Part shown: in pieces, positions 49,211 through 50,848 of the stretch
Layout: every line of letters begins with the position of its first letter
Position numbering within the stretch: position 1 is the stretch's first letter
Assembly (NCBI RefSeq): GCF_000186345.1
Contig: NC_014962.1
Coordinates: 4,182,450 to 4,246,449 of the forward strand
DNA length: 64,000 nt
Direction of reading: 5' to 3'
Source of the DNA: Isosphaera pallida ATCC 43644
Lineage (GTDB): Bacteria; Planctomycetota; Planctomycetia; Isosphaerales; Isosphaeraceae
Translations under genes and position numbers: made by a program
The notes under the pieces: generated by a model
What the model saw: the letters and a program-made list of their open reading frames with translations, nothing else
Database searches by the model: none
Told to the model about the DNA's origin: nothing

Positions 49211-50848
49211 TTAGTCCTCCTCGTCGGACGAAATGGCGACGGCCTGCTCCAGGCGGTCCTTAAGTGAGCGAGCCACCTTGCGGGGACTACCGGCCCTTAA
49301 CAACGCCCCGGAAACCGCCACCCGACGGGCTCCGGCCTCCAACACGTCGTCGAGGTTCGACTCGTCGATTCCCCCTAGGGCAAACCAGGGCAGCGTGGTC
49401 GTTTCGGCGGCGTGGCGCACCAAGCCTAGCCCCACGATTTCCGAGGAGTCGAACGACTTGGTGCCGCTAGGGAAGACGGGGCCGACCCCTAGGTAATTCG
49501 CCGCGTCCAGCACCGCGCGGCGGATCTGGCTCGGATCGTGGGTCGAAACGCCGATCAAGGGAGCGCCTCCCAGTAAACGGCGCGCGTCTCGCACCGTCAA
49601 ATCGGTCTGGCCAAGATGAACCCCATCCGCGCCTGCCAGACGCGCAAGATCGCAACGGTCGTTGACCACGAAGGTCGCCCCCGCCCGAGCCGTCAGTAGC
49701 CGCACCTCGCGCGCCCGTTCCAGCCAGACACGATCCTCCACGCCCTTCTCTCGAAGCTGGACCACGTCCACCCCACCTTCCAAAGCTTCGCCCACCACCC
49801 AGGTCAAATCCCCCAGAGTCGGCAGCCCCCCCACCAGGAGATACAAACGGGCCTTTCCCAACCCACGCTGCGAACGGATCGCCGTCGCCACCATCTTCTC
49901 CAAGGTGTACACGTCGTATCGTAACACTTCAAAACGACCTGACAACCAAACGTTGCGGATTTTGCAATACTCTTCCAGCGTCCGCAACGCTTCGCCAAGA
50001 CGTTTGAAGTTGGCGGTGAGAACGGCGCGGGGGTGTTCGCGAAGGCGTTCCTCCGGGGTCATGATATGGGTTCCGACGTCGCCTGGGGTGTCGCGGGCAG
50101 CCAGGAGGGTCTGGTCATCCAGACCGGCGAGGGCTTGGGAGAGGCGGTGTCGCACATCCTTGAGGCGGCGGGTGAGCATCGGATCGTCCAAGGCGAACCG
50201 GACGTAGTCCTCGATGACCCTCAGCGCCTCGCGGGCTCGGTTGCCCGAAGCGTCCAGGATACGGGCGAGTTCGTGGTCGTCGGCGGCGTCCCCTAGGTCG
50301 AGGCGGAACGGCTCGTCCTCGACCTCGATTGGCCCAATGTCCTCGTGGATCAGGGTTCGGATTGCCTCCACTAGCGCTTCGACCTGCACACCGGCCCGAA
50401 CGAGTAGGGTGCGGAGCGGCAGCGAGTACTCCACCAACGCCAGGAGGAGATGTTCTGAACTCACCGGATGATTGCGGTCCCAGCGTCGGGCGATTGACCG
50501 GGCTTCGTTGAGAACGGCCCGGAAATCCAACGAGTCAGGCGGCTCGTTGGTTGGCTTGCCGGGGGCCTCGGCGTCGCGGGGCGGTTCGCCGGGGACGACG
50601 TTGGGTTCCGCGACCGATTCGTCGGGGCCCACCCTATCACTGTTGGCGACGCTAAACCCGAGCGCTGAGAGCAATTCCTCGGCACGCAGACCGTGATCGG
50701 CGAGCAGTTCGCCGGCTTTGCTCTCAGGTTGATCGGCCAGAGCCGCCAGCAGGTCGCCCGGCTCGGTCAGGGGCGAGGACCGAGCCTGCGCTCGGCGGTG
50801 GGCTTGATCAACCAGACGTTGAGCGGCGGGGGTGAGGGCGTCTCGCAT
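49211..50848 (-). CDS. thiE: thiamine-phosphate synthase with Clp_N-like and ThiD2 domains
   Basis: A 545-aa fusion. Residues 5-63 and 110-168 are two Clp-N-like helical repeats (LTPAAQRLVDQAHRRAQ; HPVSSEHLLLALVEYSLPLR), normally seen in ClpA/B/C chaperones. Residues about 193-325 (ASGNRAREALRVIEDYVRFA, ANFKRLGEALRTLEEYCK) match the ThiD2 domain, an HMP-phosphate kinase often fused to ThiE in cyanobacteria. Residues about 334-535 are ThiE with VVQLREKG, FVVNDRCDLA, GADGVHLGQTDL, LGVGPVFPSGTKS and FALGGIDESN. ThiE couples HMP-PP and thiazole phosphate into thiamine phosphate. The start is uncertain; the ATG at MRDALTP was chosen because it opens the first repeat. The Clp_N part is unusual here. 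Confidence 0.88.
   Translation of the reverse strand: MRDALTPAAQRLVDQAHRRAQARSSPLTEPGDLLAALADQPESKAGELLADHGLRAEELLSALGFSVANSDRVGPDESVAEPNVVPGEPPRDAEAPGKPTNEPPDSLDFRAVLNEARSIARRWDRNHPVSSEHLLLALVEYSLPLRTLLVRAGVQVEALVEAIRTLIHEDIGPIEVEDEPFRLDLGDAADDHELARILDASGNRAREALRVIEDYVRFALDDPMLTRRLKDVRHRLSQALAGLDDQTLLAARDTPGDVGTHIMTPEERLREHPRAVLTANFKRLGEALRTLEEYCKIRNVWLSGRFEVLRYDVYTLEKMVATAIRSQRGLGKARLYLLVGGLPTLGDLTWVVGEALEGGVDVVQLREKGVEDRVWLERAREVRLLTARAGATFVVNDRCDLARLAGADGVHLGQTDLTVRDARRLLGGAPLIGVSTHDPSQIRRAVLDAANYLGVGPVFPSGTKSFDSSEIVGLGLVRHAAETTTLPWFALGGIDESNLDDVLEAGARRVAVSGALLRAGSPRKVARSLKDRLEQAVAISSDEED

Follow-up and report, generated by a model that had tools for sequence, protein, structure and literature searches.

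We report that a gene of Isosphaera pallida ATCC 43644, found in the window (the whole stretch of 64,000 nucleotides analysed here), encodes a real fusion of a two-repeat Clp_N domain to the thiamin enzymes ThiD2 and ThiE. ThiD2-ThiE fusions and Clp_N domains are each already known, the latter being the docking surfaces that Clp unfoldases offer to adaptors, marked substrates and several antibiotics. No mention of their combination was found in searches of open-access papers, and domain databases may list the architecture. The order given in the original prediction, two Clp_N repeats followed by ThiD2 and ThiE, was confirmed, with all three families above the Pfam cut-off (PF02861, PF17792, PF02581). 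The gene and its parts, in window positions, are as follows.

49211..50848, minus strand: Clp_N-ThiD2-ThiE fusion gene, 545 codons plus stop, ATG at 50846-50848
50660..50836, minus strand: Clp_N repeat 1, residues 5-63, with G31 at the E32-equivalent position, T6 as the T7 equivalent, and the family-specific R11 and E42
50555..50623, minus strand: disordered inter-repeat linker, residues 76-98, pLDDT <50 at 76-90 and 92-98
50336..50530, minus strand: Clp_N repeat 2, residues 107-171, with S131-E132-H133 at the positions of T105-E106-H107 in B. subtilis ClpC
50294..50317, minus strand: flexible linker from the Clp_N domain to the enzyme, residues 178-185, pLDDT <50
49895..50263, minus strand: ThiD2 domain (HMP-phosphate kinase), residues 196-318, PF17792, 138 bits
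49241..49846, minus strand: ThiE domain (thiamin phosphate synthase), residues 335-536, PF02581, 177.5 bits, match at 336-515

On the whole protein PF02861 scores 29.7 bits in two stretches, against a Pfam cut-off of 20.7. Residues 1-189 scanned alone give Clp_N as their sole Pfam match (30.8 bits, again in two stretches), so the N-terminal 170 residues, on whose identity the original prediction depended, score as nothing else. PF02861 is also matched at E<=0.01 by 73 of 80 N-terminal extensions of relatives, the window's own included. A profile of the extensions compared with the PDB matches ClpC N-domains across both repeats, the best hit being M. smegmatis ClpC2 (E 2.7e-21), followed by ClpC1 and ClpC (about 1e-19), ClpB (down to 1.9e-18) and ClpA (about 1e-12). 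The AlphaFold2 model of residues 1-189 (mean pLDDT 87) contains eight helices in two sets and has the fold of the ClpC1 N-domains (Foldseek probability 1.00, TM 0.81-0.84 normalised to target); its helices at residues 7-62 and 107-171 agree with the repeats initially placed at 5-63 and 110-168. The matches among relatives, the PDB profile and the Foldseek fold rule out a chance or low-complexity match. The Pfam search of the 545-residue protein detected no AAA+ family and no domain ahead of Clp_N, including the DNA-binding N-terminal domain of ClpC2 type; Clp_N begins at residue 5. In the full-length model (pLDDT 90, pTM 0.71), residues 76-98 and 178-185 lie largely below pLDDT 50, which suggests that the repeats are loosely linked and that a tether holds the domain to the enzyme. 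Judging from the confidence values of this model and not from its coordinates, the Clp_N domain is probably not packed on the enzyme.

A true start near residue 190, which would leave the enzyme without the extension, is ruled out by several observations. Conserved extensions occur in 111 genomes, and homologues share the start position of the fusion gene, with a LTxGAxRAL-like motif, when the sequences of relatives are compared. The G+C content of the extension by codon position (0.79/0.47/0.74) is close to the values of the catalytic part (0.72/0.46/0.76) and unlike those of the upstream DNA (0.54/0.66/0.59). A simple Nei-Gojobori count over 17 close pairs gives dN/dS values of 0.10-0.62 for the extension (median approximately 0.22, all <1) and 0.03-0.20 for the catalytic part. 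The Clp_N extension is under purifying selection, and by the same measure the evolution of the N-domain outpaces that of the catalytic part by a factor of 1.1 to 6.5. The local neighbours of the fusion gene in the window genome are, by eye, a divergent glutathione-peroxidase-like gene and a histidine kinase.

The enzyme half appears ordinary, as judged from its sequence: ThiD2 would phosphorylate HMP-phosphate and ThiE would join the product to the thiazole. Residues 190-536 pass the NCBIfam ThiD2-ThiE equivalog NF002727 (357 bits, cut-off 335), and the ThiE equivalog-domain model TIGR00693 scores 177.4 bits against a cut-off of 145.1. In a set of 57 homologues the invariant residues include R196, D199, N203, R204 and E207 in ThiD2, and R366, K368, N396, D397, H411, Q414, S435, T463, K464, G492 and G493 in ThiE, where Q364 is nearly invariant. 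We take R366, K368, N396, D397, S435, T463 and K464 to be ThiE active-site residues with catalytic roles. The window genome also encodes a separate ThiD-type kinase. Neither a TPP riboswitch nor a CIRCE site, the latter sought by its consensus sequence, was detected near the fusion gene here or in the loci of relatives, and the gene is therefore not tied to either regulon by such elements.

The fusion is not peculiar to the window genome. P0001 matches 388 of 398 Planctomycetia genomes, and among 162 loci of the class read in sequence, 111 are fused and 51 encode ThiD2-ThiE alone; this is not an unbiased frequency, since the loci were partly chosen for strong matches. All loci read are fused in f1, the family of the window genome (31/31), and in f104 (4/4), as are nearly all in f2 (32/36) and f101 (23/24), and none in f3 (0/28), f106 (0/6), f110 (0/3) and f107 (0/2). 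The families with the fusion are f1, f2, f4, f5, f101, f102, f104, f108, f109, f111, f113-f115, f117 and f118. Seven loci sampled from other planctomycete classes are all unfused, and no N-domain was found in 20 loci of other classes with long upstream open frames (G057 also being among the seven); a peptide-pattern scan of named genomes returned a single match, an unrelated ThiE.

On the enzyme tree (FastTree, weak backbone) the fused state requires 15 changes. The N-domain has been lost in the whole families f3, f106, f107 and f110, and also in single lineages; the Clp_N domain of the enzyme is dispensable in evolution. The fused N-domains form one group as against those of ClpC, ClpB, a third Clp group and the stand-alone Clp_N proteins, with a weak support of 35. 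Fold and key motif are retained at 20-30% identity. The domain was probably gained once, in or before the ancestor of Planctomycetia, and then lost repeatedly; one gain with repeated loss is the simplest reading of the trees, short of proof.

In at least 60 of the 162 class genomes (L007, L010, L020, L087, L092, L110, L140, L157, L169 and 51 more), clpC lies upstream of thiD2-thiE as its head-to-head divergent neighbour, a lower bound because the flanks covered just 0.3-2 kb. Of these neighbours, 27 stand beside fused and 33 beside unfused genes. The gap between the 5' ends of the matches is 254-1427 bp, with a median of 596 for fused and 1079 for unfused loci. All but one of the divergent neighbours are 78-88% identical to the ClpC N-domain of the window genome, and on loci long enough they continue into the ClpC AAA+ module. 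At L030 the divergent upstream frame encodes 297 aa that are 40% identical to the window genome's ClpC, a diverged paralogue. At the unfused f3 locus L092 a TPR-like gene of approximately 240 aa (L092:3233-3955, plus strand) lies between thiD2-thiE and clpC and explains the wider gap there. The larger neighbour-less loci of f1, f101, f104, f102, f4 and part of f2 showed no clpC, over approximately 8-10 kb upstream in most of them. In the window genome itself the two genes are not adjacent, clpC lying at 1.37 Mb and the fusion at 4.23 Mb. As the pairing occurs with and without fusion, adjacency does not show that the domain originated from clpC. Origin as a recent inverted copy of the 5' end of the neighbouring clpC is unsupported, the fused domains grouping apart from ClpC and ClpB; a profile of the fused domains gives planctomycete ClpB N-domains (45-72 bits) roughly the same scores as those of full-length ClpC (57-72 bits).

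Almost every genome checked in the class has ClpC and the McsB arginine kinase. ClpC-type matches were obtained in 31 of 32 genomes searched, one of these (G435) at ClpB level only, and 59 of 60 genomes have McsB, a frequency that makes any correlation between the fusion and McsB uninformative. A fusion without ClpC in family f104, which would have ruled out any connexion with ClpC, can be set aside: G429 has no ClpC or ClpB matches, yet other f104 genomes have ClpC, and its assembly is therefore probably incomplete. The window genome encodes one ClpC, one ClpB and a McsB homologue (L105:1195-2247). Two tandem McsA-like genes lie upstream of the latter (L105:2244-2939 and L105:2978-3556, both minus strand). 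The original prediction had proposed that the fusion lets thiamin synthesis be sensed or degraded by the Clp system, or places the enzyme near it. A link with this system draws support from the clpC neighbour in 60 of 162 genomes and from the presence of ClpC and McsB almost everywhere; it is weakened by adjacency being uncoupled from fusion and by the absence of the domain in many lineages.

We aligned 111 fused domains with 50 ClpC N-domains, the residue numbers being those of a B. subtilis ClpC sequence that served for numbering alone. E32 and E106 are the determinants of one phospho-arginine site each in ClpC, and activation depends more on E106 (PMC12583610). The equivalent of E106 (pArg1 site) is E or D in 98 of the 111 fused domains (E132 in the window protein), the residue before it is T or S in 110, the H107 equivalent is H in 79, and the T7 equivalent is T or S in all 111. 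The E32 equivalent (pArg2 site) is lost, with no consensus in the column and G31 in the window protein, and the basic residues R9 and R83 of ClpC are replaced. The K12 equivalent is R in 107 of 111 (R11) and the E43 equivalent is E in 103 (E42). The window genome's own ClpB likewise has E-H at positions 106-107; retention of the E106 site is therefore not specific to phospho-arginine binding, and the E-H motif may have been kept for structural reasons.

Our tentative reading is that the Clp_N domain is a tethered module of Clp type that binds ligands or adaptors. A free N-domain of ClpC type would dock something that the ClpC N-domain also binds, either a Clp adaptor or a peptide or protein, for instance one bearing phospho-arginine, and through this docking the amount, place or activity of the enzyme would follow the state of protein quality control. 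That the fused domain binds a ligand, which ligand this is and how the enzyme responds are inferred, by analogy with ClpC2, as the most likely account. In favour of docking are the identity of the domain, its conservation and constraint, the disordered linkers, the kept T7 and E106 equivalents, the frequent clpC neighbour and the wide presence of ClpC and McsB. The disappearance of the E32 site, the replacement of R9 and R83, the E-H motif shared with ClpB, the faster evolution of the N-domain, its losses, the adjacency of clpC without fusion and the lack of a TPP riboswitch or CIRCE site all argue against it. A bolder version, in which vitamin B1 synthesis is under the direct control of phospho-arginine marks or Clp adaptors, so that a link between McsB-ClpC and cofactor supply would have existed since the origin of the class and be mirrored in the clpC/thiD2E pair, seems to us unlikely.

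The strongest rival to docking is a structural role, with Clp_N serving as an oligomerisation, solubility or stability element that has no connexion with the Clp protease, and the clpC neighbourhood being a historical accident. We consider it rather doubtful. It would accommodate the uncoupling of adjacency and fusion (27 fused and 33 unfused neighbours), the separate grouping of a domain that is no recent copy of ClpC, the ClpC surface residues that were not retained and the faster evolution of the N-domain relative to the enzyme. However, disorder in the linker at 178-185, together with a pTM of 0.71 against a pLDDT of 90, suggests no packing on the enzyme, and ThiD2-ThiE works without the domain in 51 genomes of the class and in other classes. 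The domain could also be a nearly neutral passenger that a single gene fusion brought in and that is now disappearing. The 15 changes of the fused state on the enzyme tree and the interspersed losses (e.g. L086, L087, L089, L093 and L088) fit such a passenger, but neither the dN/dS of 0.10-0.62 and persistence in most families of the class nor the conservation of fold and key motif at 20-30% identity would be expected of it; we regard it as very unlikely.

It is also quite unlikely that Clp_N delivers ThiD2-ThiE to ClpC-ClpP through a bridging adaptor and thereby places the abundance of the enzyme under regulated degradation. To our knowledge, Clp_N resides on the unfoldase and not on the substrate in known systems, so that a free Clp_N should compete with ClpC, which counts against delivery. 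The near universality of ClpC and McsB and the clpC neighbourhood of thiD2-thiE would suit delivery, as would the enrichment of the plastid thiamin enzyme THIC with a ClpC1 trap (PMC8889267), although THIC is a different enzyme devoid of Clp_N. The basic residues of the ClpC N-domain are, moreover, not conserved in the fused domains. A free Clp_N would more naturally compete with ClpC for ligands or adaptors, as ClpC2 does, than send its own protein to degradation.

A biosynthetic enzyme that stably carries a Clp_N domain across a bacterial class, often with clpC next to it, provides a natural case for studying the role of a free Clp_N and a possible coupling of cofactor synthesis to proteolysis. 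The fusion may let protein quality control touch vitamin B1 synthesis. As many related species exist with and without the domain, the question is directly testable.

Compared with known systems, the protein shares its ThiD2-ThiE domain order and the invariant ThiE residues with the enzymes of NF002727 / PRK02615, which lack Clp_N (the NCBI model has 349 residues). With the N-domain of B. subtilis ClpC and M. tuberculosis ClpC1 it has in common both Clp_N repeats, the fold, T7 and the E106-site motif; it differs from them in having no AAA+ modules, a lost E32 site, a disordered inter-repeat linker and its own near-invariant R11 and E42. Clp_N likewise occurs outside an unfoldase in four planctomycete proteins, L248, L249, L250 and L251, which group with ClpC in the tree and carry no thiamin enzyme. 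L248 (148 aa) and L249 (158 aa), from f101 and f3 genomes respectively, are stand-alone two-repeat Clp_N proteins. In L250 (491 aa, plus strand) a ClpC-like N-domain precedes a long stretch of uncharacterised sequence with zinc-ribbon-like cysteine motifs at its end, and in L251 (424 aa, minus strand), from an f1 genome, it precedes a stretch of membrane-spanning appearance. Mycobacterial ClpC2 also carries a two-repeat Clp_N detached from the unfoldase, its M. smegmatis representative being the best PDB match of the profile. ClpC2 senses cyclomarin and competes with ClpC1 in binding it (PMC10030653). As a ligand-binding sensor and decoy it is the nearest tested precedent for a Clp_N off its unfoldase; it is a DNA-binding autorepressor that sequesters cyclomarin, whereas the partner of Clp_N here is an enzyme.
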